The position numbers and the translations under genes were made by a program. The notes beneath the pieces were generated by a model. It did not search any database and was not told the origin of the DNA. It worked only from the letters and a program-made list of their open reading frames with translations. A stretch of 30,136 nucleotides of DNA from a virus: positions 1 through 30,136 of the IMG/VR virus record IMGVR_UViG_3300042560_001639. The stretch is one strand, 5' to 3'. Shown one piece after another: positions 364 through 28,085 of the stretch; position 1 is the stretch's first letter; every line of letters starts with the position of its first letter.

Positions 364-404
364 TCGTGCGGACCGTACGACGGCACAGGTGCCGCCTGAG
401 CGGC
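364..404 (+). other. Two adjacent hairpins in the 5' non-coding region
   Basis: TCGTGCG (364-370) pairs with CGTACGA (374-380) over a GAC loop, with one G-T wobble. GCCGC (391-395) pairs with GCGGC (400-404) over a CTGA loop. Neither is followed by a T-run, so neither looks like a classic intrinsic terminator. They may be structured RNA, or protein-binding sites on DNA. Confidence 0.4.
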
Positions 405-434
405 CCAGCCGCTGCCGGTTGTGACCTTGGGCAC

Positions 435-455
435 GTGGGGAATTTTTTTCCCCAC
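435..455. repeat. Perfect 8-bp inverted repeat around promoter copy A
   Basis: GTGGGGAA at 435-442 is the exact reverse complement of TTCCCCAC at 448-455, with five T between them. The identical 21-nt element recurs at 6518-6538. The left arm puts a reversed CCCCAC box upstream of the promoter-like module, but without a GGCT partner on that strand, so it is not a second full promoter. Confidence 0.7.
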
Positions 456-473
456 TGGCGGCTTATAATAAAG
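449..473 (+). promoter_or_regulatory. Promoter-like module, copy A (ahead of the terminase block)
   Basis: T, CCCCAC (450-455), spacer TGGC, GGCT (460-463), TATAAT (464-469), AAAG. It is the only copy whose last block lacks GG. The CCCCAC box is also the right arm of a perfect inverted repeat, GTGGGGAA / TTCCCCAC (435-457 region, T-rich loop). The start of the small terminase gene lies 215 nt downstream, so this copy would give a long, hairpin-bearing leader, unlike six of the other copies. Confidence 0.65.
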
Positions 474-516
474 CCCAGGGTACAGGACACCGGTACACCG
501 GTGCTCCGGTAACCGG

Positions 517-573
517 ATCGGCCCTAAGGCCGATACAGGAGCCGGTCACTGGATCGGCCCATTGGGGCCGATT
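517..573 (+). other. Twin ATCGGCC/GGCCGAT hairpins in the leader of copy A
   Basis: ATCGGCC (517-523) pairs with GGCCGAT (528-534) over CTAA. ATCGGCCC (553-560) pairs with GGGCCGAT (565-572) over ATTG and can be extended outward with a one-base bulge. Both stems share the same core, so they are repeats of one hairpin. They would lie in any transcript begun at copy A and could stabilise it, bind a protein, or attenuate transcription. Confidence 0.5.
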
Positions 574-603
574 CCGGATTGAACCGGTACCTTGGGAGCG
601 GTG

Positions 604-631
604 TTTTACCCCCAACGGTGAGCACTATGAT
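604..631 (+). promoter_or_regulatory. Weak candidate sigma70-type promoter
   Basis: TATGAT at 626-631 has a -10-like sequence, with TTTTAC at 604-609 sixteen nt upstream as a poor -35. It would start a transcript about 50 nt ahead of the small terminase gene. The match is weak and could be chance. Confidence 0.2.
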
Positions 632-688
632 ATATGGCTCTCGGTCCACACCGTCTGCTGTATACCCTTTCATTTAACCGAGGTATAT

Positions 689-1162
689 ATGAGCACCAAG
701 ACAACCGATCTTCAAAACGCCTTCATAGTGTGGTCGCTTAAACCCGTAAGTGAACGCGGTGCGATCGACACCGAAACCGCCTGGGCGGAGAAACACAAAG
801 TCTCGACTCGTACACTACGACGTTGGAAGACGCTCCCCGAGTTTCAAGCGCGCCTGACCGAGTTAAGTGAGGCCCGCAGTGTGACCTCCGTCACAGAACA
901 GACGACGTCAGCAGACGAGGGCGATTACCAAGTCGTGAAAGCCGCCCTGGTCGAGGGCGCGAAGCAGGGCAACCCAAAGTACCTCGAGTTGTACTTCAAG
1001 ACCTACGGCAAGCCCTTCGTCGAGGAGGAGGCCGCCAGTCGGTCATCCGACCTCACGGGCCTGGATCTGGAGGACCTGGTAAGCAAGGCACTGGTAGCAG
1101 TAGGTCCAGAGGTAGTTGCGGGACAGTTGCGTAAATTGGGGTGGCGATGCGAAGGTCCGTGA
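689..1162 (+). CDS. terS: Terminase small subunit
   Basis: A 157-residue protein directly ahead of the large terminase gene, in the usual place of the DNA-recognition subunit of the packaging motor. Residues about 27-52 (AEKHKVSTRTLRRWKTLPEF region) look like a helix-turn-helix with an STRTLRRW recognition helix, as expected for the N-terminal DNA-binding domain of small terminases. The middle is helical and charged and would form the oligomer ring; the C-terminal part (LDLEDLVSK...) may contact the large subunit. Size fits the family. ATG 689 follows a GAGG at 680-683. The stop overlaps the next start (TGATG). The call rests on the HTH, the size and the position; no sequence search was possible. 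Confidence 0.75.
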   Translation: MSTKTTDLQNAFIVWSLKPVSERGAIDTETAWAEKHKVSTRTLRRWKTLPEFQARLTELSEARSVTSVTEQTTSADEGDYQVVKAALVEGAKQGNPKYLELYFKTYGKPFVEEEAASRSSDLTGLDLEDLVSKALVAVGPEVVAGQLRKLGWRCEGP

Positions 1163-1395
1163 TGATTACTGTACTGCATGCGTTCAACGAGGCCCCAGGT
1201 GAAGGTCAAGAGAAGCACCTTGAGTATTGGTACGGCGCGGTAAAACCAGAGGATGAAGAGTACGAGGACCCAGAACGACCGGTAGTCTGCTGGTGCGGGG
1301 CGGTACAAGTACGTATCAGTAGGAATGTAGCGTGCGTATGGCACCAGGACTTCTGGCCCACAATGCATGAAGCCAAGGAGATCCCCAATGACTGA
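1162..1395 (+). CDS. Small hypothetical protein between the terminase subunits
   Basis: A 77-residue acidic protein of unknown function. I chose ATG 1162, which overlaps the small terminase stop and has AAGG at 1152-1155, over in-frame GTG 1141 and ATG 1147 farther upstream. The middle is rich in Glu/Asp (PEDEEYEDPE) and is followed by a small cysteine group (CWC, then a further C about 15 residues on) and two His, which might bind a metal but do not form a complete known finger. The gene overlaps the large terminase start by 8 nt, so the three are translated as a unit. A role in packaging is possible from context only. Confidence 0.6.
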   Translation: MITVLHAFNEAPGEGQEKHLEYWYGAVKPEDEEYEDPERPVVCWCGAVQVRISRNVACVWHQDFWPTMHEAKEIPND

Positions 1396-3181
1396 ATTAA
1401 AGCGTCAAAAGGAATTGAATCGCCTGTGGGTAGAACTGGAGTGGCGCCGTTGTGCGCAAGATGAATCCTACTTCATCAACAACTATGTATGGATCCCCTC
1501 GATGGAGGACCCACGTGGTCGTACTAAATTTGAACTTTTTGACTACCAAAACGAACTACTGTCCCTGACCAAGACCAACCGCTTCGTAATTGCCCTCAAG
1601 GCGCGTCAGATTGGCTTTACAACGCTCGGAATGGCCCATGCCCTATGGTTGGCCCTCTTCAGGCCTGGAGCGACCGTCCTGATCGTTTCTGAGACGCAGA
1701 AATCATCCAACAAGAACCTGGCCCAGGCACGCCTGGCCTACCAGTTCCTGCCCGCCTGGATGAAGGAACGGGGACCGAACGTCAAGAACGACTCCTCAAC
1801 CGGCATCTCATTCGAGTTTAATGACGGCATGGTATCAAACCTAAAGGCAAACCCCGCCACCGGCGGTGTGTTCGCAGGTGAGACCGCCACATTCGTATTG
1901 TGGGACGAGGCCGCCCTTGTCGAACCCGCCTCCCTGCAAGAGGACGTACTTAGAACACTACTACCAACGACGGACGCCGGCGGTTCGATGATGATCGTAA
2001 GTACCGCTCGTGGTGCCTACAACCGTTTTGCGAAGACCTACAGGGCCGCACAGAAGCGAGAGAGCCAGTTCGTGGCATTCTTCAAGCCCTGGATGGTATC
2101 GCCCTTCATGCGCTGTAGTGAGCACTGCGGTTGGTGCAGTGGTACCGCGGGTGAAAAGACACCATGCAAATCAAAGTACGATCTTAAACGCAGGGAGTTT
2201 GCAGACCAACCCTGGCGGTTCTTCCAAGAATACCCAGAACAAGAGGAAGAGGCATTCAGAGAATCCGGTCGCCCCCGTTTCGTAGGACTACCACCAGAGA
2301 CTGAGTACAATAATTTTACATTCCGTGGGGACCTATCATGGAAAGACGATCATTCGTTGGTTTTCACCCCAGACGAATCAGGACCACTTCATCTTGCAAC
2401 CATAGAACCCGACCCAAAGGGTTTCTATGTCATAGGCGCCGACCCATCCCAAGGTATCGGAAAAGACTACGCATCGGCACACATCATGACCATAGACGAC
2501 GACGGTAATCCAGAAATTGTCGGTTACTACCATAGCAATGTGGTACATCCTACCGAGTTTGCCTCAGCACTTGATCGGATGGGACGATACTTTTCCGGAC
2601 GTGAGTGGGCCGCTAAGTTGGCCATTGAAGATCAGGGAGGTCAGGGAGCACTTCCTATTAACGAACTACACCGGCACCTTGATTATCCAAACCCCTACAT
2701 GCACACATCGCCTGGTTCAAAGAAGTCCAGGGGCACGAGACTATTTGCATTCCCCATGACCGTAGACAGGAGACGCGCCGTTATTGATCGTCTGGCTAAA
2801 TACCTTGTAGTCAGGGACGGGCAGACCATTTTGAACGGTATACACCCAGCCCTGCGTATAGAACTTGGTCAATTCGTAGCCCAGGAAACACCAAACGGCA
2901 ACATACGATATGCCGCAGATGTGGGCTGCCATGACGACTTGGTCATGTCCTTGGCGATATCACTGTGGATTTTAATCGAAGAATATACCGAGGCCTCCCC
3001 AGAGGAGGCTATTACTGAGGAGGTTGTTTGGAAACCAAAGACGACGATCAACCTGTCCAAACTCCGAGAGGAGAGGGACAGGTATCTCGCAGAGGTAGAA
3101 GAACAGCAACGCCAGGCAATGGAATCATTTGTTATGGCGACCGAATTGATTCAGACACCAAGAGGTTACCGTGGCATATAA
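1388..3181 (+). CDS. terL: Terminase large subunit (packaging ATPase/nuclease)
   Basis: A 597-residue packaging motor that pumps DNA into the prohead through the portal using ATP and cuts the concatemer. The ATPase half shows a Walker A-like KARQIGFTT at residues 71-79 and Walker B VLWDEA at 170-175 (D173, catalytic E174). The nuclease half shows an RNase H-like acidic set: D352 in IGADPSQG, D415 in AIEDQGGQG and D516/D517 in GCHDDLVMS. I chose ATG 1388 because AAGGAG lies at 1374-1380; an in-frame upstream ATG at 1367 would absorb that SD. Unusual: four cysteines at residues 243-260 (C-x3-C-x2-C-x9-C) between the two domains, which could bind zinc. The end overlaps the portal start. Confidence 0.93.
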   Translation: MTELKRQKELNRLWVELEWRRCAQDESYFINNYVWIPSMEDPRGRTKFELFDYQNELLSLTKTNRFVIALKARQIGFTTLGMAHALWLALFRPGATVLIVSETQKSSNKNLAQARLAYQFLPAWMKERGPNVKNDSSTGISFEFNDGMVSNLKANPATGGVFAGETATFVLWDEAALVEPASLQEDVLRTLLPTTDAGGSMMIVSTARGAYNRFAKTYRAAQKRESQFVAFFKPWMVSPFMRCSEHCGWCSGTAGEKTPCKSKYDLKRREFADQPWRFFQEYPEQEEEAFRESGRPRFVGLPPETEYNNFTFRGDLSWKDDHSLVFTPDESGPLHLATIEPDPKGFYVIGADPSQGIGKDYASAHIMTIDDDGNPEIVGYYHSNVVHPTEFASALDRMGRYFSGREWAAKLAIEDQGGQGALPINELHRHLDYPNPYMHTSPGSKKSRGTRLFAFPMTVDRRRAVIDRLAKYLVVRDGQTILNGIHPALRIELGQFVAQETPNGNIRYAADVGCHDDLVMSLAISLWILIEEYTEASPEEAITEEVVWKPKTTINLSKLREERDRYLAEVEEQQRQAMESFVMATELIQTPRGYRGI

Positions 3182-5105
3182 AAGTCGATACACACTAAAA
3201 GACAAGCAGGCAGTTATCCGCGACGCTATTCGTCGTATGGAACCGGCACACGAGCACTGGCGCCTACTCGAGGCACTCTATCGTACCGGCGCACAAAGGG
3301 AACTGACACAACTGGATCTTAGTCGTATACTTCCATTCCCTATCCCAGGTTCATTCCTACGCACGGTAAACATGCTCCTGCCACACCTGACACTACTGAT
3401 TAACTCAGTAGCGGCCAGGGATCCTAAATTTGTAGTCACACCAGTTGACGGTGATCCATTGGTAGTAGAACAAAATGGTAGTATTGCTAAATCCGTGCTT
3501 GATTACTACTGGCGCCGTTCGGATGCAACCGAAGTACTGAGGGATATGACCCAGGACATGGTTGTTCTTGGAAACGGTTTTTGTAAAGTAGGTTGGTCAT
3601 ATTCTGAAACAACCGTCGATAGGGCACTTGATGATCTTGCCATCGAGACCACCGATCTAATGGTAGCCGCTAATGAGATAGCCGCGGAAACCGGCCTTGA
3701 GATGAGCGATGCCGCAATGGCAGAGATCGTAGAGTCAATCTCGCTTACCGAACAAATGGTAGAAACAGATGAACCATATGTTGAGTATGTGTCCCCATAC
3801 GACATGTTTCTCCCCGCCGATGCACGACGCATCAACCAGGCCCGTTGGGTATGTCAACGACTACGTCTACCACTTGATGAAATTAAATCAAATGATTTGT
3901 TTAATGCAAAAGCAATCAAGGATGTAAAAACAGATACTGGTTTTGCGGACAAAAATACCCTCGATCATTTTGAAATGAGAGAAGAGGGACTGCCCCCAGC
4001 ATTCTCATATGCCACAATATACGAGTTCTACGATATGCGCGACCGTACCGTATGCGTATTCCAACTGGATGCAGAAGAGGCACTATACGAAGGAGAGATA
4101 CCCTACGCCCACCGTTACCCACCGTTCGTACACATGCGCAACTTCTCAGACGGCGGTTCGACCATCTGGTCGTTCGGTGATCTCGAGAACGTAGCCGGTA
4201 TCCAATTGATGGTCAACGAGATCATGGTCGCCGAGATCAATGACCTCAAGCGTGTGGGCAACAAGTACTTCATTAACAAGAAGGTACTGACACCAGAACT
4301 TGCAAAGGCACTCGCAGAGAACCGACCAGACCAGGTAATTCCCGTGGATCTACCTGGGAATGTGTCCATGCAAGAGGTCCTGCAACCAGTGCAGCGTCTC
4401 GCTACACCGTCTGATAACTACATCATGGAAGACAAGATGCAGACCTACATGCAGCAGATTCTTGGTATCTCCGACCTGCAGATGGGCGCCCTTTCTGGTG
4501 CATCACGCGTCCCTGCTACTGCTGCTGCTGCAGTTGAGGGTGCCTCAACTACCAGGGCCCTTGATAAAATGACGAACGTCGAAAAGGCAAGTCGTGAGAT
4601 CGGTACGCGTATCCTCGGTCTGTGTCAGCAATTCATGGACGAGGGCAAGGCAATTCGTATTGCCGGACCTAACGCACCACAATGGTTGCAAATTACCTCA
4701 GAGGACATTGACGGTGAGTTTTCGATTGAAGCAGAGGGAGGTTCCACACAGGCCATTAACCCAGCCAGTCGTGCACGTCAGGGACTCGAGATGTTGCAAA
4801 TTGTAATTCCAGCACTGGCCCAACTCGGTTATAGTCCAGAACCGGCACTACGTACAGCACTATCATACATGGGATTAAACCCAGACCATATCATGGTCGC
4901 CGCACAACCGGCGGTACCCGAGGGTCAACCAATGGCACCTGAAGCACAGGCAGGAGCACAGTTACCGCCTGAACTGATGGCCATGCTTGCCCAACAGGGT
5001 GGAGCCCCTGTATCACCAGAGATGAATAGTCCGATGATGCAGGATCTGGCCGCCCTGGGCGGTCCTCCAGTACCAGCCGCAGGAATGGGGGAGGTGATGT
5101 TGTAA
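3171..5105 (+). CDS. Portal protein
   Basis: A 644-residue protein right after the large terminase, the standard place for the portal, the dodecameric ring that nucleates the capsid, serves as packaging channel and joins head to tail. It has a long helical and mixed core and ends in a flexible Pro/Met/Ala/Gln-rich tail (from about residue 570), which is usual for portals of podovirus-like phages. Length fits that group. The start is GTG 3171, inside the end of terL and preceded by AGAGGT at 3160-3165; this overlap suggests coupled translation. The stop shares bases with the next start (TAATG). Family assignment rests on size, position and general sequence character. Confidence 0.85.
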   Translation: MAYKSRYTLKDKQAVIRDAIRRMEPAHEHWRLLEALYRTGAQRELTQLDLSRILPFPIPGSFLRTVNMLLPHLTLLINSVAARDPKFVVTPVDGDPLVVEQNGSIAKSVLDYYWRRSDATEVLRDMTQDMVVLGNGFCKVGWSYSETTVDRALDDLAIETTDLMVAANEIAAETGLEMSDAAMAEIVESISLTEQMVETDEPYVEYVSPYDMFLPADARRINQARWVCQRLRLPLDEIKSNDLFNAKAIKDVKTDTGFADKNTLDHFEMREEGLPPAFSYATIYEFYDMRDRTVCVFQLDAEEALYEGEIPYAHRYPPFVHMRNFSDGGSTIWSFGDLENVAGIQLMVNEIMVAEINDLKRVGNKYFINKKVLTPELAKALAENRPDQVIPVDLPGNVSMQEVLQPVQRLATPSDNYIMEDKMQTYMQQILGISDLQMGALSGASRVPATAAAAVEGASTTRALDKMTNVEKASREIGTRILGLCQQFMDEGKAIRIAGPNAPQWLQITSEDIDGEFSIEAEGGSTQAINPASRARQGLEMLQIVIPALAQLGYSPEPALRTALSYMGLNPDHIMVAAQPAVPEGQPMAPEAQAGAQLPPELMAMLAQQGGAPVSPEMNSPMMQDLAALGGPPVPAAGMGEVML

Positions 5106-5353
5106 TGGATAAGTTTGTTAAACTTGCCGCGATTGAGCAGTTGGCCAAGCCGATGGAGGAATTCCACGGTAAGGATTCGGCTAAGTCTGAGTACAAAGAA
5201 GGTGGAAAAGACTGGGAATGCCCAGAATGCGGTACCGCTGTAATGGCAACTAAGGACATGGAAGAATGTGAATGCCCGTGTTGCGAATGCGAAATGGAAC
5301 CAGCCGAGGATACCGAAGAAGAAGACGAAGAAGAGTCCGAAGACGAGGACTAA
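5105..5353 (+). CDS. Small acidic protein with a zinc-ribbon-like cysteine cluster
   Basis: An 82-residue protein with a basic-to-neutral N-terminal half, a cysteine cluster at about residues 39-62 (CPEC, then CECPCCEC) and a C-terminal tail almost wholly Glu/Asp. Pairs of CxxC knuckles of this kind normally bind one zinc ion. The acidic tail might mimic DNA or bind a basic partner. It starts inside the portal stop codon, with GGGAGG upstream at about 5088-5093. Its place between portal and scaffold suggests a minor head or assembly role, but I do not recognise the family. Confidence 0.7.
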   Translation: MDKFVKLAAIEQLAKPMEEFHGKDSAKSEYKEGGKDWECPECGTAVMATKDMEECECPCCECEMEPAEDTEEEDEEESEDED

Positions 5354-5356
5354 GCC

Positions 5357-5980
5357 ATGAACGCAAAACGTGAAGGCTTAGAGAGAATCGTTAAAGGTGC
5401 TGCTAAAGTCGCAGACGATTGGGGATGGAGCCCTTCTCAGATGAAACCTGGTGAGATTAGCGGTACAGAGTTTAATCGCAGACTATCGGAACTAACTGGT
5501 CTTAATGATAACTTTAGCCTTAAGGAAAAACTCAGAAGGGCTGAGAGTGTAGCCAATAGTGATTTTTCTCGAGAGTCTGATAATGCTTGGAGGGAATTAA
5601 CTATTCTAAGTGATGCTGTGCAAAAACAAAGAGATAGGTCAAAGTATCCAAGTTTAAAAACAAAGTTTAAAACTATGGTTAAAGGAGGTTTTGAACCCGA
5701 TGCAATCTATGATTTAGAAAGGTTCAAGATAATGGAAGACGCTGGAATACCACGAAAGTGGACTGGAAAGATTGCAGATGCCATGGATAGGGCACCTGCT
5801 GGATTATTGCTTCACAATGGACTATATAGCACTTTTATAGCGGTGGAAAAGATTTCAGACATCATGCGCCTTATGACCAACGAACAGCGTCAAACATTCC
5901 TAAACTTACTTCCTAAGTGGACTGGTACCCTGGAAACCGCTGCATCCGCAGCCAAGAAACTGTATCGGAGGCCGTCATGA
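5357..5980 (+). CDS. Unknown protein, first of tandem paralogue pair 1
   Basis: A 207-residue protein I do not recognise. It shares with the next gene an N-terminal block around KVADDWGW (residues about 16-24) followed by a PGE(I/L) motif, a central AGIPR(K/E)WTGK motif, and a C-terminal block: MTNEQR, TFLNLLP, WTGTLETAASAAKKLYRR. Between these blocks the sequence is unrelated or strongly diverged, and the DNA there is clearly more AT-rich than the flanking portal and scaffold genes. The predicted character is all-helical and charged. Stop and next start overlap (ATGA). The place between portal and scaffold hints at a head-related role; that is inference. Confidence 0.75.
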   Translation: MNAKREGLERIVKGAAKVADDWGWSPSQMKPGEISGTEFNRRLSELTGLNDNFSLKEKLRRAESVANSDFSRESDNAWRELTILSDAVQKQRDRSKYPSLKTKFKTMVKGGFEPDAIYDLERFKIMEDAGIPRKWTGKIADAMDRAPAGLLLHNGLYSTFIAVEKISDIMRLMTNEQRQTFLNLLPKWTGTLETAASAAKKLYRRPS

Positions 5981-6516
5981 GTGCTCGTGAAGAGGCTATT
6001 GGTAGACTCGCCAAGGTCGCAGACGATTGGGGCTGGAAGGGGGGAAAGCCTGGTGAGTTGACGGGTGGGGAATATCAAAAACGGCTTGATGACCTATACC
6101 AACTATATAGCCGCAACGACGGTTTTGAGCGAGGATTTTATAATCGTTGGAGAAGGGAGGAGGATTTGCTTAGAGATAAGATGGACGCTATAATAGACGA
6201 TCAAGTGGCTAAATCTAAAAATTTTAATCTAAAGAAAATAGTATACCAAACAGGTATTGAAAAGTTTACTATGGATATGAAAGAACTGGAAAATGCTGGA
6301 ATTCCCCGCGAATGGACAGGAAAGGTATGGCCCGCCATTCAAGGCCAACTGCAAAGAAAATATGACTTTGTACCACCAATCCTTGCACAACAGGTGTCCG
6401 ATCTCATGCGCCCTATGACCAATGAGCAGCGTGAGACCTTTTTGAATCTCCTTCCCCGATGGACCGGCACCCTGGAAACGGCTGCTTCCGCAGCCAAGAA
6501 ACTATACCGCCGTTAG
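5977..6516 (+). CDS. Unknown protein, second of tandem paralogue pair 1
   Basis: A 179-residue paralogue of the preceding protein. The start is ATG 5977 overlapping the previous stop; the longer in-frame extension upstream runs through the preceding gene and has no need to be coding. It shares KVADDWGW, PGEL, AGIPREWTGK and the C-terminal MTNEQR-TFLNLLP-WTGTLETAASAAKKLYRR blocks, while the centre differs and is AT-rich with AGA and AAA codons. The C-terminal blocks are close enough to suggest fairly recent duplication or continuing exchange between the two. It ends directly before promoter-like copy B, so it closes the first transcription unit. Function unknown. Confidence 0.75.
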   Translation: MSAREEAIGRLAKVADDWGWKGGKPGELTGGEYQKRLDDLYQLYSRNDGFERGFYNRWRREEDLLRDKMDAIIDDQVAKSKNFNLKKIVYQTGIEKFTMDMKELENAGIPREWTGKVWPAIQGQLQRKYDFVPPILAQQVSDLMRPMTNEQRETFLNLLPRWTGTLETAASAAKKLYRR

Positions 6517-6517
6517 G

Positions 6518-6538
6518 GTGGGGAATTTTTTTCCCCAC
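6518..6538. repeat. Second copy of the GTGGGGAA/TTCCCCAC inverted repeat
   Basis: An exact copy of the 21-nt element at 435-455: an 8-bp stem with a five-T loop, starting two nt after a stop codon. Its right arm is the CCCCAC box of promoter-like copy B. The T-rich stretch is in the loop, not after the stem, so it is not a typical intrinsic terminator. Confidence 0.7.
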
Positions 6539-6556
6539 TCACGGCTATATATGAGG
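6532..6556 (+). promoter_or_regulatory. Promoter-like module, copy B (ahead of scaffold/capsid)
   Basis: T, CCCCAC (6533-6538), TCAC, GGCT (6543-6546), ATATAT, GAGG (6553-6556). The scaffold start is 82 nt downstream. The presumed start of the transcript runs straight into a hairpin, GGGTTG (6555-6560) with CAACCC (6569-6574), so the mRNA would carry a structured 5' end, as T7 late transcripts do. Confidence 0.65.
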
Positions 6557-6574
6557 GTTGTATTCCCGCAACCC
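6555..6574 (+). other. 5' leader hairpin of the scaffold/capsid unit
   Basis: GGGTTG pairs with CAACCC over an 8-nt loop at the very beginning of the leader predicted from copy B. A stem at the 5' end can protect mRNA from 5'-end-dependent decay, which would suit high capsid production. Confidence 0.4.
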
Positions 6575-6638
6575 ACGAATAACCCTGAACCAGATCCCTT
6601 AGAGGACACCTGGGTAAGGACTCGATACTGGAGGAAAC

Positions 6639-7649
6639 ATGGAAAACCAATCACTTACTGACATTATCCAGGAATCCCTGGCAACTGTGGAACCGGACAC
6701 CAACAAGGTACCGGTCAACCAGACAGAGGACCAGGAACCTGAAGATTCCGACGAAGTCGGCATTGATGATCTTATTGGAGATCTCGATGAGGACGAGGAG
6801 TTCGAGACCGATGAGGTAGAGGACAATGAGGAGGGTGATGAAGATCCACACCTGGCAGAGACATACCAGGTGAAGGTAGACGGTGAAGTCGTTGAGATTA
6901 GTCTCAAAGAAGCACTTGCCGGATACCAGCGCCAAGCGGACTACACCCGTAAGGCCCAGGCCCTCGCCGCGGAGCGTGAGGAGTTGATCTCAGCACAGTC
7001 AGAGTTTGCAGAAACACTGAATACGCTGGGTGTCCTGGATGAAGCATGGGATGAAAATCCCGTTCAAGTCCTGGCACACTTTACGGCCAACACCGACAAT
7101 CCGACGATGTCTTTGGCACTGTTGATTAAAGAACTGGCTACCGCCAATCTTCTTGATCAGGAGTTCTTGGAGATGTTCGGGATCACAAAAGAGGTCCGTC
7201 AAACCTGGGGCAAAGATACTGAGGTAGAACAACTGAAGCGTAAAGTCTCGAAGTCTGAGCAAGAGAAACAGACCAAGGCACAAGAGGCAGCGTATGAGGC
7301 AGAAGTCGCGCAAGCGATGAATCAATACGAACTGCAGATCGATGAGATTCTTGCAGCCGAGGGACTGAAACTTAAGCCCAGCCAGCGTGATGCGTTCCGC
7401 ACTCGTCTTGCGCAATATGCTTACGAAAATGAACTCACGAACCTCAAGGCCGCATATAAGGCATTGAAGTACGAGGAGTCTCAAAAGAAGAAGCAAGTTG
7501 CCGAGAAGACCAAGGAACGTGCCAAGCAGAAAAAGAACGCCTCGGTCGTCGGGCGTTCAGGTGCAGGTTCCGCAGGAGCCAAACCAATTTCAGACGGCTC
7601 CGATCTGACGGAGATCATCCGCCAGACGATGGGCGAATTGTCCATCTGA
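6639..7649 (+). CDS. Scaffolding (head assembly) protein
   Basis: A 336-residue protein immediately upstream of the major capsid gene, the usual position of the scaffold that guides capsid assembly and then leaves the head. The N-terminal 70 residues are strongly acidic (DEDEEFETDEVEDNEEGDED region). Then comes a YQVKVDGEVVEISLKEALAG block followed by YQRQADYTRKAQ, seen in many phage scaffold or head-assembly proteins, and a long helical, coiled-coil-like Gln/Lys/Glu-rich centre (about 190-300). The basic C-terminal segment (KTKERAKQKK) fits a capsid-binding end. ATG 6639 has an ideal GGAGG at 6631-6635. It is followed by a 68-nt gap and the capsid gene. Confidence 0.82.
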   Translation: MENQSLTDIIQESLATVEPDTNKVPVNQTEDQEPEDSDEVGIDDLIGDLDEDEEFETDEVEDNEEGDEDPHLAETYQVKVDGEVVEISLKEALAGYQRQADYTRKAQALAAEREELISAQSEFAETLNTLGVLDEAWDENPVQVLAHFTANTDNPTMSLALLIKELATANLLDQEFLEMFGITKEVRQTWGKDTEVEQLKRKVSKSEQEKQTKAQEAAYEAEVAQAMNQYELQIDEILAAEGLKLKPSQRDAFRTRLAQYAYENELTNLKAAYKALKYEESQKKKQVAEKTKERAKQKKNASVVGRSGAGSAGAKPISDGSDLTEIIRQTMGELSI

Positions 7650-7659
7650 TGGTAGATAA

Positions 7660-7709
7660 CCTCTAAGGATTGGACCAGTAAAGAGCCATACTCAAACAAC
7701 CTTAGGAGG
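7660..7709 (+). promoter_or_regulatory. Stem-loop that can mask the capsid ribosome-binding site
   Basis: CCTCTAAGG at 7660-7668 can pair with CCTTAGGAGG at 7700-7709: nine base pairs with one bulged G around a 31-nt loop. The right arm contains the AGGAGG Shine-Dalgarno of the major capsid gene (start 7718). It could delay or tune capsid translation, or be a processing site between scaffold and capsid messages. The pairing is seen in the sequence; the role is inferred. Confidence 0.45.
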
Positions 7710-7717
7710 TAAACATC

Positions 7718-8761: not shown

Positions 8762-8786
8762 TCTCAGTAGTTCTTCGGAAGGCAAC

Positions 8787-8826
8787 GGCCTCCGCTCCCC
8801 AAAGGGGCGGGGGCCTTAGCCTTTTA
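8787..8826 (+). terminator. Intrinsic terminator after the capsid gene
   Basis: A 14-nt arm GGCCTCCGCTCCCC (8787-8800) pairs with GGGGCGGGGGCC (8804-8815), about 12 bp with a bulged T, followed by a short T-rich run ending CCTTTTAT (8819-8826). It is the clearest terminator in the window and would stop transcripts 26 nt after the capsid stop codon, directly ahead of promoter-like copy C. Confidence 0.8.
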
Positions 8827-8837
8827 TGGAGACAAGT

Positions 8838-8862
8838 TCCCCACTTGCGGCTATTGATGAGG
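8838..8862 (+). promoter_or_regulatory. Promoter-like module, copy C (ahead of adaptor/nozzle)
   Basis: T, CCCCAC (8839-8844), TTGC, GGCT (8849-8852), ATTGAT, GAGG (8859-8862). It lies just 12 nt after the capsid terminator, so downstream genes need a fresh promoter here. A separate GGAGAG (8869-8875 region) serves as SD for the adaptor start at 8879. Confidence 0.7.
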
Positions 8863-8878
8863 ATCATACGGAGAGTAA

Positions 8879-9541: not shown

Positions 9542-9553
9542 TAGGAGGGGTAC

Positions 9554-12016: not shown

Positions 12017-12017
12017 T

Positions 12018-12042
12018 TCCCCACTGGCGGCTTAGATAGAGG
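12018..12042 (+). promoter_or_regulatory. Promoter-like module, copy D (ahead of internal virion proteins)
   Basis: T, CCCCAC (12019-12024), TGGC, GGCT (12029-12032), TAGATA, GAGG (12039-12042). GAGGAG runs on as the SD of the gene at 12052. A GGGGA at 12005-12009 can pair with the TCCCC of the box, a weaker form of the inverted repeat at copies A and B. Confidence 0.7.
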
Positions 12043-12051
12043 AGACACAGC

Positions 12052-14330: not shown

Positions 14331-14341
14331 GGAGGTAAGCC

Positions 14342-17300: not shown

Positions 17301-19153
17301 TTTCTACAATGGAGAATCTGTACAATACATACAAGAGCATACGTCGCCATGTAACTCCAGAAGAACTCAGTGCCCTGGGAGAGGCAGAGCAGGCCGTGTT
17401 GTCTGGTCCATTCTCTGGTCTTACCCGTAAGGGCAGGCGTATGTCCCGTGCGGCTGAGGAACTTTATTCGGAAACAGGTATTGCTAAAATTGGTTCTGGT
17501 CCAGAAAACGTAAAACTCTATCTACCTAAGACACTACAAGATTCGTTTGCACCCGAGGGTGTACGTACCGCAATGGAACGACTCTATCGTGCGGAACAGG
17601 ATCCATCTGAATGGCAGCAGTGGATGTCTAAAATTTATGACCCTGCAGCATTGGTATGGAAGACGGGCGCCACTGTAGCAAGAGGTCCGGCCTATGCAAT
17701 TACCAACTTGGTTGGTGCGTTAGTAATGAACTTCCTGTATCGTGTGACCCACAAATCCCACCGTATTTCTGCAGTTGTACTCAATAGGGTACAGACAGTA
17801 CTAAGGGAGGTCACAAAGGCTAATCCAGATAAGTCCTACTTTGAATTGGTAGAGATTGCCAAAGAGCGCCTTGAAAAAGAAATCGGTGGTATTAAGGTAG
17901 GGGATAAATCAGCAATTGATCTATTCTCTGGTTTCTTGGGTCGTGGTGGTCATTTCTCTACTGACACTTTCTATCAAATGAATGAACTTCAAAGACTCGG
18001 AATGGCCAATATAGAACCACTATCCCGTCGCTCAGGTATTCAGTTCCGTTTCGATGAGGCATCATCTGGTCCAATAGAAGACAAGTATCGTGCCGTAGTA
18101 ACGTTTATCCTAAATAACCCTGTTCAGAATGTATTGAACGACTTTGCCCAATTGAGTGAATTGTTCCCTCGTTTTGCTGCATATGTTGATGGTTATGCAA
18201 AATTTGGTAATGAGGCATCCGCAATGGACTTGGTGCATATGCTTCACTTTGACTACCAGGACCTGTCAAATGCTGAGATTTGGGTGAAGAGGTTTGTTCC
18301 ATTCTATACCTGGACCAGGCATAACATACCCCTACAATTGAGGGCGGCATTCTTGTCCAGCGACCAGATGTTAAAACTTTACAATGCTAATAATGAGGCA
18401 AAAGAGGCCTTTGATATTGATGGAGATGCGGCCTGGATCAATGACTTCCTGCCTGACTATATGGACATTAACGGTGGATTTTCTTCATACATTAAAACTG
18501 GAGATGGATATCTTGGGTTGTTCCCTAAACTTCCCATGCAAGATGCTGACCGTATGTTTGGTACCGTGTTTATCGGTGGTATACCAATCCCATGGCCAAG
18601 ACGTGATGCAATAATCTCGACTCTTGGTCCTATTATAAAGAGCCCTATTGAGTTGATTACGAACAGAAACTTTGAACTTGGTTACTCCTATGGTTCCGAT
18701 ATGGAGTTGCTGCAGGGACAGACACGTACCTTAATACCGTACTATGGTACAGCGAAGCGACTGCTTTCCGCTGCCGGATTGCCGGTTGATCGAGAGAAGC
18801 GCTTGGTCAACTTGCTTAACGTACTTGTTGGTGCCCCATATGGTGCAACTTTAATATCGGAGAAATCAATTGGTCAGGGTGCAAGGCAAACATCGGAGAA
18901 ACTTAACGCCCAATTACGAGCCGCTGCCGATGATGCAAACGTTGATATTGACTGGTTGCGTGACAAACTTAACAAGAATGTCCCATTGCCACAATTGATG
19001 GCCATGATCTCTACCGGTCAGGGTGCCAGGGAACGGGTAGAAATGAAAAAGAAGTTGGAGGAATTTATGAAACCACCTTCTGGAAAGAGTTATGCGGATG
19101 TTTTAGGACAATTAAGGAGTTCCGATAGGGGAATCCCCACCTACGGCTCTTAA
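14342..19153 (+). CDS. Giant virion protein, probable internal/ejection protein
   Basis: A 1603-residue protein, the largest in the window. Residues about 650-1000 are highly charged, Ala/Glu/Arg-rich and strongly coiled-coil-like. A hydrophobic stretch lies near 1115-1135 (ITNLVGALVMNFLY). At about 1318-1333 is FVPFYTWTRHNIPLQL, a motif I recall from giant proteins of environmental phages related to this gene order. I see no lysozyme or protease motif. By size and place it corresponds to T7 gp16, the large internal protein ejected into the cell. A tape-measure role is less likely as no long-tail genes are present. ATG 14342 has AAGGAGGT upstream. Its last codons lie inside promoter-like copy E. 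Confidence 0.65.
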   Translation: MANGFTPQSSANEKIKRYLERSGFEIPTSSEKSFKSIMGNITSSQRAVKGIKALDKKPKPKEKQGILSRLFDQEKGILTAPARLVTAFTSSTLGGIGDVNNEMEGMNPFEAAYRSFKGEFAITGGDIIRVNDDDPFLERLTKYAGALALDIVTDPINYVGPVNLFSKKGAAVLAVRNGNQMLGVADDLLKQSGRANEATTLVDRLFDSTRLNQAAKAQIRLGIEVTPGSPVDILKMGTDGLVSSQIKASHAGSQLGLLVGESLLTGGRPKIRRTVAELLGSDDLAAKFMERLPTEVSGGIFLKNPVTGQPLKKIAGGRGAGGEAVEAINKARFALSALPPVNFLTENFSGKSGVVYANVKKGLASKLKPSDIDRTTLLDFVTFKDELQERGLFLSDLSQASARKVSGALATAKVYATDPTARGEYEAAFKAAFHSPRAPLSPNMSVAQQEGTAAAANLRTAIMDAHADLKAAGIEVGDLGPDFTPLMRTDEAHQKKLKMGYTGGARTETVAYSGGYGRRSLKERMPDPEQRKLAGFDDPKDPDVVNLSAVEANKRLRIAGKLADDELEYIEDPVVITQKYLEWANNSLSAKRFADRAAQTGAILKFPAEQRTFIETVDGQAFRDAVGKVSPQIAKRVEAVRNALDAKLRAALDPKELERVQNDVMLFRGETLTTFKDAQLALRGANQELLRANRAVEAAADRLRAATTEARNAAGGPNNVGALVQEAQRVYNNARSRLSKAANQAEQAKESYEFMASRLPLPGPSPELLDDNLTAWYDVLADTDVQVSRTQQRLNEEIITNQQAREELTRARELRQGVYDQLDEAQKRNFDMYEEALVVQERAAAIANSARARKDKALLDARAAVEDTTILRAQGLDALVNRYTRAKSEYLDIKMGMKKAYKDMTDDEKKIITEARDAMVKAHRELKEMLGYATKRAGAGAEYARLIVKLAEKLPEIEIEVARVISSTKRMNVLMDSLQDMSRDDALSTMENLYNTYKSIRRHVTPEELSALGEAEQAVLSGPFSGLTRKGRRMSRAAEELYSETGIAKIGSGPENVKLYLPKTLQDSFAPEGVRTAMERLYRAEQDPSEWQQWMSKIYDPAALVWKTGATVARGPAYAITNLVGALVMNFLYRVTHKSHRISAVVLNRVQTVLREVTKANPDKSYFELVEIAKERLEKEIGGIKVGDKSAIDLFSGFLGRGGHFSTDTFYQMNELQRLGMANIEPLSRRSGIQFRFDEASSGPIEDKYRAVVTFILNNPVQNVLNDFAQLSELFPRFAAYVDGYAKFGNEASAMDLVHMLHFDYQDLSNAEIWVKRFVPFYTWTRHNIPLQLRAAFLSSDQMLKLYNANNEAKEAFDIDGDAAWINDFLPDYMDINGGFSSYIKTGDGYLGLFPKLPMQDADRMFGTVFIGGIPIPWPRRDAIISTLGPIIKSPIELITNRNFELGYSYGSDMELLQGQTRTLIPYYGTAKRLLSAAGLPVDREKRLVNLLNVLVGAPYGATLISEKSIGQGARQTSEKLNAQLRAAADDANVDIDWLRDKLNKNVPLPQLMAMISTGQGARERVEMKKKLEEFMKPPSGKSYADVLGQLRSSDRGIPTYGS

Positions 19154-19158
19154 TGAGG
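19134..19158 (+). promoter_or_regulatory. Promoter-like module, copy E (ahead of lysis genes), overlapping a stop codon
   Basis: T, CCCCAC (19135-19140), CTAC, GGCT (19145-19148), CTTAAT, GAGG (19155-19158). It encodes the last five residues of the giant virion protein, whose TAA stop lies within the AT-rich hexamer. GAGGA is the SD of the start at 19168. GGGG at 19128-19131 can pair with CCCC of the box. Confidence 0.68.
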
Positions 19159-19167
19159 ATGTGAACT

Positions 19168-22102: not shown

Positions 22103-22106
22103 GGCC

Positions 22107-22131
22107 TCCCCACGGTAGGCTATATACAGGA
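22107..22131 (+). promoter_or_regulatory. Promoter-like module, copy F (ahead of second fibre gene)
   Basis: T, CCCCAC (22108-22113), GGTA, GGCT (22118-22121), ATATAC, AGGA (22128-22131). AGGAGG at 22128-22133 is the SD of ATG 22138, the shortest promoter-to-start distance of all eight copies. It also shows that the start is 22138 and not an earlier in-frame codon. Confidence 0.68.
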
Positions 22132-22137
22132 GGCTTT

Positions 22138-23109: not shown

Positions 23110-23112
23110 CAT

Positions 23113-23137
23113 TCCCCACCTGGGGCTTTCTATAGGA
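23113..23137 (+). promoter_or_regulatory. Promoter-like module, copy G (ahead of the tip cluster)
   Basis: T, CCCCAC (23114-23119), CTGG, GGCT (23124-23127), TTCTAT, AGGA (23134-23137). CTATAGGAGGA here strongly recalls the TATAGGGAGA end of T7-type promoters. AGGAGG is also the SD for ATG 23148. It starts four nt after the preceding stop. Confidence 0.7.
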
Positions 23138-23147
23138 GGATTATCAT

Positions 23148-23408
23148 ATGATCAACGCAACACTTTCAGTCGGAACTACAGCAGTAAAGGTGACACTGGG
23201 CGCCAACGAGCGTCCTGTTATTGTCAATACGGGAAGCACCACCTTGTATTTCGGCAACACGAACGGAGTTACTGCGGCTAACGGTATCCCGCTTGGACCA
23301 AATGTTGGCTACGAGTTTCCGATGAATCTTGGCCAGGCCCTTTGGAATGAGTTGTGGGTCATCTCATCGGCGGTAGGTGGAGAACTCAGGTACGCCCAAG
23401 TGGGGTGA
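23148..23408 (+). CDS. Small beta-rich structural protein
   Basis: An 86-residue protein of alternating polar and hydrophobic residues with many Val, Thr, Gly and Asn (TTAVKVTLGANERPVIV, TTLYFGNTNGVT), suggesting a small beta-sandwich. Short proteins of this kind between fibre genes in phages often cap or decorate capsid or tail fibres. ATG 23148 has an excellent AGGAGG. The following gene begins four nt after its stop. I do not recognise a specific family; a virion-surface role is inferred from composition and neighbours. Confidence 0.65.
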   Translation: MINATLSVGTTAVKVTLGANERPVIVNTGSTTLYFGNTNGVTAANGIPLGPNVGYEFPMNLGQALWNELWVISSAVGGELRYAQVG

Positions 23409-23412
23409 TACC

Positions 23413-24170: not shown

Positions 24171-24705
24171 ACTCAAGGGCCTACCGTGGCTGGAGATTGA
24201 ACCAGGCGACATCGGGTTCGATGGCGGCATTGGTATCAGCGGTTGGTTGATCCGCCGCTCCACAGGCGCGTACGGACACGTATTCATTTACCACGAGAAG
24301 ATCGATGACAATGCCTGGCGTACCGTAGAGGCCGGTCCGTCTGGTGTCTTGTTCCGTATCCGTACAAGACCGGCTAACAAGGTAGTTCGCCTGTGGCGCA
24401 CCAAGGTGGAACAGAATCGTATCCTGGCCGCATCCGCTGAATGCGCCGGACGTAAGTACGGTTGGGGCGAGATCGCCCGTATCTGCCTGCACCTGATTGG
24501 TATCAAGATTAATGGGTGGAAGGATAACAAGGGTCGCATGATCTGCTCGAACCATGTGGCATACAGTATCGGTCAGATGAAGAAGGGCATCAAGTACACC
24601 TTCCCGTACAAGGCCGAGCACATCTGGCCACAGAAACTGGCTGAATGGTGCGACTGGTACACCTGGACCCGTGCCCGTATTGCCGAGAAGCGGAGGGCAA
24701 AATGA
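24163..24705 (+). CDS. Permuted NlpC/P60-like (YiiX-type) amidase or peptidase
   Basis: A 180-residue protein with the order of a circularly permuted papain-like fold: a PGDIGF opening (residues 14-19), then YGHVFIYHE with likely catalytic His39, and later GRMICSNHVAYS with likely catalytic Cys128. In this class, histidine precedes cysteine in sequence, the reverse of normal NlpC/P60. Members act on peptides of the cell wall or on acylated substrates. Here it could open the wall during infection or assist lysis. Start GTG 24163 has GGAGGTGGG at 24148-24156. It overlaps both neighbours by a few nt. Other possibility: a non-enzymatic relative. Confidence 0.72.
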   Translation: MDELKGLPWLEIEPGDIGFDGGIGISGWLIRRSTGAYGHVFIYHEKIDDNAWRTVEAGPSGVLFRIRTRPANKVVRLWRTKVEQNRILAASAECAGRKYGWGEIARICLHLIGIKINGWKDNKGRMICSNHVAYSIGQMKKGIKYTFPYKAEHIWPQKLAEWCDWYTWTRARIAEKRRAK

Positions 24706-25364
24706 ACGTTGCTGATTATTTAGTCCGTTGGTCCCCTAACATCGTTGAGGCCACCGCTGACGATATCGCACGCTTCGGTCCGAATGCGGCGCAGGTTCTT
24801 GGGTTGTTAAACTATCTTCCGACGATGAGTGACGATGGGGCGGAGGCGACTTATAGGATGTGGCGGACTCCGTTGAATGCCGCGGATGATGCCGCGTGGA
24901 ATGCCGCGTGGGATGCCTCGTGGGATGCCGCGAGTGCTACCGCGAGGAATGCCGAGATGCGTGCCGCGGATGATGCCGCGTGGAATGCCGCGCGGGATGC
25001 CTCGTGGGATACCGCGAGGACTGCCGCGAAAAATGCCGCGCGAGCCGAGGTAGTCTCAGACCTCATAACCCCCGAACAATACCGGTTACTCACCAACCCA
25101 CTCAATATTGGCCGCACATATCAAGAACGGATGGGTTTGATGCTACCCGATCAGCAAGGCCCATTCATGCAGATGATTAATCAACTACGGCCCGCTTCCG
25201 CCGAGGATGTCCTTGCAATCGAACGACTTAGCGGCAACCCCAATGTGAATGCACTGCTTGAGATGCTTGGTGGTATGGCCGAAGGTCAATCATTGGCGCG
25301 TAGAATCAAGGCCGCAGAAACTATGTACCGCGCTGGTCGTGAAGGCAGGAGGGGCATAGTATGA
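24702..25364 (+). CDS. Unknown protein with AAW repeats, first of tandem pair 2
   Basis: A 220-residue protein; ATG 24702 overlaps the previous stop and has CGGAGGG at 24691-24697, so I rejected a longer in-frame start. Its N-terminal 40 residues ([27 protein letters not shown]) and C-terminal 100 ([43 protein letters not shown]) closely match the next gene. The centre, about residues 60-115, is two 28-residue Ala/Trp/Asp repeats built from AAW and AAR tetrapeptides. It has no hydrophobic anchor and looks helical. I do not know the function; similar Ala/Trp repeat tracts occur in various phage and bacterial proteins of unknown role. Confidence 0.72.
24879..25046 (+). repeat. Two tandem 84-nt repeats inside the AAW-repeat gene
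   Basis: Units 24879-24962 and 24963-25046 agree closely over their first ~56 nt (only two or three changes) and less afterwards. Each is itself made of a 12-nt-like GATGCCGCGTGG or AATGCCGCG motif. The repeat is in frame (28 residues), so copy number could vary without breaking the gene. Confidence 0.75.
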
Positions 25365-25981
25365 GCGCCGCTGACTATTTGGTTCGTTGGTCCCCTAACA
25401 TCGTTGAGGCTACTGCTGACGACATCGCACGTTTCGGTCCGAATGCGGCACAGGTTCGGGCATTGTTGAACTACCTTCCGACGGTGTCTATTCCCGCGAG
25501 TAATGCCGCGCGGTTTTTTGTAAAAGGTGACGCTGCGAAGGGCGCGTGGAATGCAGCGATGGATGCTGTATGGCGTGCCCAGTCGAATACCCCGTTTAGA
25601 GACTTCGGAAAAGCCGCGAGTAATGCCATAGGTAATGACACTGGAATGTTTGGTTATGGTGCTTTGGATGCTGAAGTAACATCACACCTCATCAGCCCAG
25701 AAATCTACCGTACCATTACGAATCCACTCAATACTGGCCGTATACTACAAGAACGCATGGGACTCATGCTACCTAACCAACAGGGTAGATTCATGCAATT
25801 GATCAGAGGCGCTACCTCACCTGAGGACATCCTTGCAATCGAACGACTTAGCGGCAATCCAAACGTAGACGCTCTGCTTGAGATGTTGGCTGGTATGGCC
25901 AAAGGTCAATCATTGGCGCGTAGAATCAAGGCCGCAGAAACCATGTACCGCGCTGGTCGCGGTGGGAGGGGAATGGCATGA
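25361..25981 (+). CDS. Unknown protein, second of tandem pair 2
   Basis: A 206-residue paralogue of the preceding protein. Its first ~37 and last ~95 residues are almost the same, with long runs of DNA that differ only at a few third positions, for example around [11 protein letters not shown] and [15 protein letters not shown]. The centre is different: a short remnant of the Ala/Trp pattern (KGAWNAAMDAVW) in a less regular, more neutral sequence. Start ATG 25361 overlaps the previous stop and has CAGGAGGGG upstream. The pair arose by duplication and then exchanged or lost the central block. Function unknown. Confidence 0.72.
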   Translation: MSAADYLVRWSPNIVEATADDIARFGPNAAQVRALLNYLPTVSIPASNAARFFVKGDAAKGAWNAAMDAVWRAQSNTPFRDFGKAASNAIGNDTGMFGYGALDAEVTSHLISPEIYRTITNPLNTGRILQERMGLMLPNQQGRFMQLIRGATSPEDILAIERLSGNPNVDALLEMLAGMAKGQSLARRIKAAETMYRAGRGGRGMA

Positions 25982-26268
25982 CCCCCGCACGTAAACAGGC
26001 ACTACTCCGTATGGCCGGCGTCTCTGGCTTTAATAAGCCGAAGCGCACCCCGTCGCACCCCACTAAGTCCCACATCGTTGTGGCCAAGGAGGGCGACAAG
26101 GTAAAGACCATCCGGTTCGGTCAGCAGGGCGTATCCGGCAGCCCCCGTAAGGCCGGTGAATCCACGTCGTATCGCAAGAGGCGTGAGTCATTCAAGGCAC
26201 GTCATGCCAAAAACATTGCGAAAGGTAAGATGTCAGCCGCCTATTGGGCTGACAGGGTGAAGTGGTAA
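25978..26268 (+). CDS. Small basic conserved phage protein
   Basis: A 96-residue, strongly basic protein (many Lys, Arg, His) with a beta-like core (SHIVVAKEGDKVKTIRFGQQ) and a C-terminal GESTSYRKRRESFKARH followed by NIAKGKMSAAYWADRVKW. I recall this arrangement from uncharacterised proteins of several phages, but I cannot assign a named family from sequence alone. Basic charge suggests nucleic acid or acidic-protein binding. ATG 25978 overlaps the previous stop and has GGGAGGGG upstream. The AT-rich gene at 26271 begins two nt after its stop. Confidence 0.68.
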   Translation: MTPARKQALLRMAGVSGFNKPKRTPSHPTKSHIVVAKEGDKVKTIRFGQQGVSGSPRKAGESTSYRKRRESFKARHAKNIAKGKMSAAYWADRVKW

Positions 26269-26270
26269 TT

Positions 26271-28085
26271 ATGGCATTAAGTGATAATCTTGCACAGCAA
26301 TTGGCTAATACACCAGTATTTAAAGAAATTGCTAAATTTAGTACGGCATCTCCAGTATCTAAAGTTCCAGGTTCGTACTTAGAAGCCATGTCTTCATCTC
26401 CATCTTATGGACGTAAAATAGACTATGAACTACTTTCAAAAGAGTTGGCTGATCCACAAAACAGTGCATTATTGAAAGTACTTGCTAAATCATCACAAGC
26501 AACAGTAGCAAGTTTACCACAAGAATCACAATTTATACAGCAAGTAGTGCCAGTATTACAGCAAATACAAACTCAAATAAAACTACTACATCCTAAGGGA
26601 AGACCATTACCATCTGGATCTTATAAATTAAATCAAAATCTTCAGCAAATTGGCGCAAGGATGGTTCGAAATGTAGGAGAAATTACTGATACAAAAACAG
26701 TAGATGATGCTGTTCTTTCTTTAGTGGCTAATGGCAAACTTAAAGAAGCCGCTGAGGCTATATACGATCAAATGTATAATCTTGCAGTTTTAACTCCATA
26801 TGAAACAATTGATATATATCGTAAGGGAGTTGTTGATGGTATTACTCCATCAGAATTTTGGGATATCATGGGTCTTAGATCATCTGAAGCGTCAAGCATG
26901 GCAAATATTCCAACGTACGGAATAACTACAGGTAATGCTATTGGATCAAAACAGGCTGGTCCATCTCTTGACGAACTAAACTCTCTTATATCTATTGCCG
27001 GTTTAACTGTTGATCAAACGACAGGAAAAATTGTACCAAATGATGCCTTACTGCAAGCACTATTTGGAAATCAAATTAATATGCGCGGTGATGTTGCTCC
27101 TGGAATTGCATCAGTATTAAATAATGCTGACTTTATTAACCTTGGAGTACCAGGTCTTGCTGCCAAAACTTGGCCATACCGAGGTGCTATCGCTGAAAAA
27201 GAAATAATGACACCATCTGGTCTTATTATTCCAAAAGAAATACAACCAGATTATTCGTATATTGCAGACTCACAAGATGCTGCAAGTAGATTGGGAGCAA
27301 CTTCAGCAACAACACCAAGATCGTATGCAGCAGCAAAAGATGCAAAACCAGAGCGAGTAGCCGCTCAGGCTGCCAGATCAGCACTTAACTCTACAATTGC
27401 ACAATTGCCAGGTAGATATTTATCTGAGGCTTTGGGTCTTCCCGCAAATGCCGTTATGCAAATTAACTGGCCTGTGGGACGTATAGTCCGTGGAAGTAAG
27501 TTCTCTTCTGCGCCTATGACATACTTAAATACAGACTTAGGTAGAAGTAACTTTTTTAATACTATATCTATGCTATCTCCTGAGGCTCAAGAATTAGCAA
27601 AACAACCAGAGGCTGTTGCACGTCTTGCTGATAGAAATTCTAAAGTTGCACCTAACCTAAGAAAATTTAGATCACAAGGCGACTATGGACTTGCCAGTAA
27701 AGATGTATCTCAAGTTGCCTCGGCAGAAGAAAAAAGAATGGCTCAGGATATTGTAAATAATCCTATTCTACAAGAGCAGTATTCTCTTGATGCTGCTATG
27801 CAAGGTAAAGTTGTAGCACGTACAGATGTTGCTAAAAATCTTATTACACCAGCAGCACGAAATTACCCAGGATATGTTGAATTTAATCGTGATATTTTAA
27901 ATAAAGTTCACCCAAATGCGGCGTTAAAAGCACTACAGTTTATTGCCGGTACCGCAGGAACGCTTGGTGGAGCAAGGCTACTATCCAGTCTTAGTGAGGA
28001 TGGACAGGGGACAGATCCAGAATATGAGGCCCTGAGCCGGATGTTGTCCCCACTGCCGGCTTATAATGGAGGATTACGACGATGA
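26271..28085 (+). CDS. Large AT-rich unknown protein
   Basis: A 604-residue protein of unknown function. I chose ATG 26271, two nt after the previous stop; an in-frame GTG at 26262 is also possible. The SD is weak (AGGGTGA at 26253-26259). Most of the gene is markedly more AT-rich than all neighbours, with AAA, AGA and TTA codons frequent; composition returns to the window norm in about the last 140 nt. The protein looks helical and Gln/Ala/Ser/Leu-rich, with a hydrophobic stretch near the end (LQFIAGTAGTLGGARLL). This points to an acquired or fast-evolving gene. Its last ~13 codons overlap promoter-like copy H. Confidence 0.7.
   Translation: MALSDNLAQQLANTPVFKEIAKFSTASPVSKVPGSYLEAMSSSPSYGRKIDYELLSKELADPQNSALLKVLAKSSQATVASLPQESQFIQQVVPVLQQIQTQIKLLHPKGRPLPSGSYKLNQNLQQIGARMVRNVGEITDTKTVDDAVLSLVANGKLKEAAEAIYDQMYNLAVLTPYETIDIYRKGVVDGITPSEFWDIMGLRSSEASSMANIPTYGITTGNAIGSKQAGPSLDELNSLISIAGLTVDQTTGKIVPNDALLQALFGNQINMRGDVAPGIASVLNNADFINLGVPGLAAKTWPYRGAIAEKEIMTPSGLIIPKEIQPDYSYIADSQDAASRLGATSATTPRSYAAAKDAKPERVAAQAARSALNSTIAQLPGRYLSEALGLPANAVMQINWPVGRIVRGSKFSSAPMTYLNTDLGRSNFFNTISMLSPEAQELAKQPEAVARLADRNSKVAPNLRKFRSQGDYGLASKDVSQVASAEEKRMAQDIVNNPILQEQYSLDAAMQGKVVARTDVAKNLITPAARNYPGYVEFNRDILNKVHPNAALKALQFIAGTAGTLGGARLLSSLSEDGQGTDPEYEALSRMLSPLPAYNGGLRR
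28047..28071 (+). promoter_or_regulatory. Promoter-like module, copy H, inside a coding sequence
   Basis: T, CCCCAC (28048-28053), TGCC, GGCT (28058-28061), TATAAT (28062-28067), GGAG (28068-28071). The module encodes residues near the C-terminus of the AT-rich protein (SPLPAYNGG), so it is read as protein and probably as promoter. GGAGG is the SD of the gene starting at 28082. Confidence 0.65.

Follow-up and report, generated by a model that had tools for sequence, protein, structure and literature searches.

A repeat with rigid internal spacing in the late region of an uncultured podovirus-like phage is, on balance, probably the late promoter of the phage clade to which it belongs. Transcription would start directly after its AT-rich hexamer, and the host RNA polymerase would be redirected to these late promoters by early phage proteins. 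The mRNAs would then begin with the Shine-Dalgarno (SD) sequence of the adjacent gene or, before the scaffold and capsid genes, with a protective stem-loop. A phage-specific promoter had been proposed in an earlier note on this DNA, and the proposal is supported by the strand of the copies, the slots they occupy, their restriction to the late arm, an upstream terminator, a 5' hairpin, SD sequences at +1 and conservation in the clade. The operator and the RNA-processing signal that the note offered as alternatives both appear less likely than a promoter.

The repeat in the late region

The window, that is, the whole stretch of DNA analysed, is a complete linear IMG/VR record of 30,136 bases. 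It covers a podovirus-like late region, with genes for terS, terL, portal, scaffold, capsid, a 1603-aa virion protein, endolysin, tail fibre and others, and ends short of the early arm. A pattern scan for TCCCCAC-N4-GGCT-N6-purines found eight exact copies on the + strand of the window and none on the - strand, with no match to the reversed pattern; the eight copies previously reported are all present. The 11 fixed bases predict about 0.007 copies for each strand of a 30-kb stretch, and a chance origin was ruled out by the strand and slot statistics. Allowing two mismatches made the window scan uninformative (29 found vs 28 expected). A weight matrix built from 45 copies of the window and its relatives added a ninth copy with one mismatch, at 2996 on the + strand within the 3' end of terL, whose score of 23.9 compares with 5.2 or less in Markov shuffles in this genome; no site over threshold was found on the - strand of the window. 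Exact copies occur in the relatives in the terL slot matching the ninth copy. The copies and their neighbouring features are:

435..455, no strand: inverted repeat GTGGGGA-ATTTTTT-TCCCCAC, its right arm being the box; box-inverted copy in 14/19 terS slots
449..474, +: late promoter copy 1 (putative), opening the late arm before terS (ORF 689-1162), TCCCCAC-TGGC-GGCT-TATAAT-AAAGC; slot shared with relatives
1367..3181, +: terminase large subunit (terL), the query for relatives
2996..3021, +: ninth copy, one mismatch (TCCCCAG-AGGA-GGCT-ATTACT-GAGGA), inside the 3' end of terL, followed after 175 nt by the portal ORF
6518..6538, no strand: inverted repeat GTGGGGA-ATTTTTT-TCCCCAC; box-inverted copy in 18/18 scaffold slots
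6532..6557, +: exact match, upstream of the genes for scaffold (6639-7649) and major capsid protein (7718-8761)
6555..6574, +: predicted 5' stem-loop GGGTTGT-ATTCCC-GCAACCC, from +3; perfect stem in 16/19 phages at this slot, with covariation
8777..8825, +: predicted terminator, a strong hairpin of -34.7 kcal/mol with T-rich tail, after the major capsid gene and ahead of the copy at 8838; a separate scan flags 8804-8817
8838..8863, +: copy before ORF 8879-9541, exact match
12018..12043, +: copy before ORF 12052-13101, exact match, GAGGAG at +1 as SD
19134..19159, +: copy overlapping the end of the gene for the 1603-aa virion protein, before ORF 19168-19548 (holin-like position), exact match
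22107..22132, +: copy before the tail-fibre gene (likely start ATG 22138 after AGGAGG), exact match
23113..23138, +: copy before ORF 23148-23408, exact match, AGGAGG at +1..+6
28047..28072, +: copy overlapping the end of ORF 26262-28085, before ORF 28082-28696, exact match, GGAGG at +1

In the layout common to the copies, TCCCCA lies at about -21 to -16, GGCT at -10 to -7 and the AT-rich hexamer, ending in T, at -6 to -1, followed by purines from +1. Position +1 is a purine in 35/35 core copies, and T occupies -1 in 30/35. Five window copies lie 10-20 nt upstream of a start codon, as does that at 22107 if its gene starts at 22138. The view that the copies always sit at a gene edge holds for most of them, but about 220 and 86 nt separate those at 449 and 6532 from the gene that follows, and that at 2996 is intragenic. 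The boxes, described as invariant, are so among the exact matches sought; in the relatives the last base of the first box may be C, A, G or T and GGCT is replaced by TGCT, GACT, GGCC or GGCA, and the rigid part is the spacing. The likeness to T7 promoters noticed in CTATAGGAGGA (copy at 23113) is an SD sequence (AGGAGG) after the AT-rich hexamer.

Other repeats were observed in the window. About 12 copies of a 12-bp repeat with DAAWNAA-like coding occupy 24854-25062 within ORF 24645-25364, adjoining a duplicated gene (24702-25349 and 25361-25969). Two tandem paralogous genes between portal and scaffold (5357-5980 and 5917-6516) are 77% identical over 121 nt. The products of 12052-13101 and 28698-29396, each of which begins shortly after a promoter copy, have a common N-terminal block (ELLG.DDFRR..KY...G).

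Distribution in related phages

A search with terL identified ten close relatives, and when all IMG/VR contigs were scanned for the motif followed by GAGGA, 16 stretches were found, nearly all within those relatives. Two matches outside the clade were taken as chance, G014 being a tandem repeat and G011 having no common protein. The window and its relatives are fragments; one relative, G015, lacks only the portal-to-capsid stretch, which other relatives show. Distant relatives or none were found among isolated phages, and alignments of terL and of a sigma-region-4 protein (see below) against 84,980 bacterial and archaeal genomes gave no match that would point to a host.

The terL alignment extends to 73 loci. 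Those with terL identity of 63-73% (L057-L079) carry the motif on the + strand only and in the same slots as the window, and loci at or below 49% identity lack it. In the near group (terL identity of at least 63%), TCCCCA-N5-GGCT has 104 occurrences on the late strand and none on the other, against 0-2 for any spacer other than N5. Expectation maximization (EM) recovered the motif de novo from the near group as TCCCCAnTnnCGGCT, while simple k-mer and dyad enrichment were swamped by coding bias. The slots, all on the terminase strand, are before terS, at the end of terL, before scaffold, after capsid and upstream of a number of tail and lysis genes. In five relatives the early arm, which is transcribed in the opposite direction, has no motif. 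Spacing kept without exception fits a protein bound to DNA better than an RNA signal.

In the window copies at 449, 6532 and 12018 the box also forms the 3' arm of an inverted repeat (TGGGGA...TCCCCA). An inverted box also lies upstream, at variable spacing, in 14/19 terS slots (shuffled mean 1.1) and in 18/18 scaffold slots, and these copies rank among the highest-scoring. It may represent a second half-site or a hairpin. The inverted repeats at these two slots would suit a repressor operator or a replication or packaging repeat that is not a promoter at all; such a role is highly improbable, given that the copies have a single orientation, are phased to SD sequences and hairpin and are missing from the early arm, and that the inverted half is optional.

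RNA signals around the putative start position

A hairpin with a T-rich tail, of -25 to -41 kcal/mol, precedes the post-capsid copy in 16/16 phages tested, and in the window it ends about 12 nt before that copy. Genes below so stable a terminator hairpin would need transcription to begin anew. At the scaffold slot, a perfect stem of at least 5 bp starts from +1 to +4 in 16/19 phages (shuffled mean 1.8, maximum 6), compared with 1-3 phages at three other slots. The stem covaries, with 90/90 outer cells paired vs 61 when the 3' arms were dealt anew, the former value being overstated because the rows were chosen for perfect stems. Most phages have, after the 5' stem-loop of this slot, a conserved element close to ACGAACAA (about 6575-6590 in the window). 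At least 5 nt of AGGAGG fall within +1..+8 in 17/27 gene-adjacent copies, in 0/19 at terS and in 0/18 at scaffold.

Since SD sequences and hairpins act in RNA and begin here at +1, transcription probably starts at about this position, directly after the hexamer; their placement fits a start that follows the AT-rich region with a purine as +1. A point against this position is that the host RNA polymerase, whatever its sigma factor, as a rule initiates 6-9 nt below a -10-like hexamer. If initiation took place at +6 to +8, transcripts would lack the SD sequences and the greater part of the hairpin, and these could then work only in RNA that reads through from upstream copies, which offers a way round the argument.

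The same placement would be expected if the repeat were an RNA-processing site at which upstream transcripts are cut between hexamer and purines, leaving mRNAs led by a hairpin or an SD sequence. A second hairpin upstream at the scaffold and terS slots, with the box as its 3' arm, is in keeping with this idea. Processing is nevertheless quite unlikely: the N5 and N9 spacings are fixed with no conserved RNA structure, one copy comes just after a strong terminator in every phage tested, another copy opens the late arm, and no Rfam family matched.

A sister motif in the same slots

The phages with 47-49% terL identity carry, in the same slots, a sister motif, CGCCCCA-N9-nATRRT-RRGG, with 42 sites on the + strand, three on the - strand and one in shuffled sequence. 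GGCT is lost in this motif, and the 9-nt distance from box to hexamer is unchanged from that of the near group. Slot alignment alone exposed it, EM on L084 and L087 having missed it. The sister group also has a stem-loop at the scaffold slot, as read by eye. At the scaffold slots of L083, G018 and L095, the upstream inverted repeat runs past the box into the N9 region (CACGATTGGGG...CCCCAGTTCGTG). GGCT as a -10 element was ruled out by its absence from the sister group.

The sister hexamer resembles a -10 element, having its A and T spacing, which counts against a start directly after the hexamer. An ordinary sigma-type promoter would accommodate this: the hexamer would be the -10 element, TCCCCA-N5-GGCT a phage activator site over the spacer, and the start would lie about 7 nt below the hexamer. 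The centres of the box and GGCT are 10 bp, one DNA turn, apart, which suits a two-HTH protein, and in phiEco32-like phages transcription begins 6-9 nt below the element (PMC8948821). This explanation is considered unlikely, as it would leave the SD strings and the 5' arm of the hairpin, which start from +1 to +4, untranscribed. Near-group hexamers, moreover, often lack the A at position 2. There is no -35 element, the box-hexamer distance being always 9 nt and not 16-18, and no excess of sigma-70 sites was found in 1-12500.

Polymerase searches and candidate specificity factors

Among 17 relatives and distant relatives, none had a T7-type polymerase domain (PF00940) that scored above the cut-off, with T7 itself as control giving 1e-110, and no beta or beta' domain was detected in the relatives (controls positive in 14/14, with no separate control for phage-type split beta/beta'). 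The single-subunit RNA polymerase suggested earlier is not supported by these searches. A virion-borne polymerase within the 1603-aa protein was rejected, its one weak match (E 0.011, G008) being judged chance. The large unknown proteins of G015 had no Pfam polymerase match. G015 and, together, G010 and G000 account for the gene map, with no early ORF large enough for a polymerase.

These results make it very doubtful that the repeat is a promoter for a phage RNA polymerase too divergent to recognise or encoded elsewhere. The compact layout, with a start right after an AT-rich hexamer, is in the style of single-subunit polymerases, and a similar arrangement is known in the jumbo phage AR9, whose late promoters have a four-base box near -10, a 6-nt gap, T at -1 and a purine at +1, with no upstream box in their consensus, and whose own multisubunit, non-virion polymerase reads the template strand of uracil DNA (PMC5312081, PMC9209446). 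The present motif likewise has a four-base box centred near -10, a fixed 6-nt gap, T at -1 and a purine at +1. Unlike AR9, beta/beta' genes are absent here and an upstream box is present.

With no recognisable RNA polymerase in the relatives, the phage probably reprograms the host enzyme with small DNA-binding proteins of its own. Two such proteins, whose genes lie in the relatives' leftward early arm, are candidates for redirecting the host RNA polymerase, linked to the motif by co-occurrence in few genomes. One, of about 150 aa, has sigma region 4 only; it occurs in six near-group phages and, as a weaker match, in one of the sister group, and is encoded by every relative whose contig reaches its place. 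Its AlphaFold model, confident at about residues 50-105 only, matches sigma-E region 4 on -35 DNA with an rmsd of 1.2 A. Bound to TCCCCA, this protein would sit about 20 bp from the start and not 35, which counts against the assignment. Sigma region 2 (PF04542) was not found over cut-off in 14 records, with positive controls in 11. The phage-directed sigma factor of the earlier note is in this way partly borne out, by a region-4 protein, and partly not, region 2 being absent.

The other candidate, a tandem-HTH protein of about 200 aa, was identified in six phages (G001, G002, G003, G010, G015 and the sister phage G018). Cbp1, a tandem-HTH repeat-binding protein, is its top match in NCBIfam, and a fold search gave only weak matches, sigma factors first. 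The one-turn spacing of the box and GGCT would suit such a protein. A late gene of G010 (reversed contig, 1724-1870, +) starts with a 49-aa stretch that shares 49% identity with the C-terminal HTH of the tandem-HTH protein from the early arm.

A more specific and rather speculative proposal is a split factor, made up of the sigma-region-4-only and tandem-HTH proteins and devoid of region 2, with which the host polymerase would start directly after the hexamer; the motif would have been switched between the sister groups with positions kept. We know of no description of bacterial initiation by such a split specificity factor without region 2.

Comparison with known promoter systems

Phage T7 has compact repeated late promoters that are AT-rich before +1 with purines from +1, a phi10 stem-loop on the capsid message and a terminator after the capsid gene. 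The compact repeats, the AT-rich and purine start layout, the 5' stem-loop of the scaffold slot and the post-capsid terminator of the present clade are similar; unlike T7, the relatives have no polymerase gene, the consensus is unrelated and the conserved part reaches -21. Sigma-54 promoters, which carry GG at -24, have similar-looking spacing and were rejected since this GG is absent.

The nearest working analogy is offered by phages phiEco32 and 7-11, in which the host polymerase with a phage sigma factor reads six to eight non-early promoters per genome, and in which promoter positions were kept while the motif changed with a diverged specificity protein; the 7-11 late promoter is bipartite, GTAAtg-16-aCTA (PMC8948821). 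Several late promoters per genome and positions kept under a changing motif are found here too. In those phages the sigma factor has region 2 and the start is 6-9 nt from the element; the present clade lacks region 2, has a spacing of 5/9 nt and carries RNA signals that begin at +1.

RinA and Ltr are small DNA-binding proteins of Gram-positive phages that activate late genes via the host RNA polymerase, Ltr proteins binding several repeats upstream of one TATA-type promoter beside their own gene (PMC13123087). The present system would resemble them, if the candidate regulator holds, in using a small phage DNA-binding protein that acts through the host RNA polymerase, and differs in having about nine dispersed single sites and a candidate gene that is not adjacent. 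The start-associated sequences (SAS) of Cluster K mycobacteriophages, with consensus GGGATAGGAGCCC, lie in the right genome half (PMC3203893). They too are asymmetric repeats before start codons, nearly all in one orientation and some with an upstream inverted repeat; their consensus is not matched here, and the present copies also occur inside terL and far from starts.

Each known promoter class tested misses at least one defining feature, and no description of this compact promoter was found in the literature searched. Neither the logic of sigma-type promoters nor that of known phage polymerases accounts for its geometry, with 9 nt from box to hexamer and RNA signals from +1, and the genome has no recognisable polymerase. 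The near and sister groups form a natural experiment in the coevolution of promoter and factor. A clade of uncultured phages gains a readable late regulon, the motif is already useful for annotation, and the promoter could serve as an orthogonal promoter.
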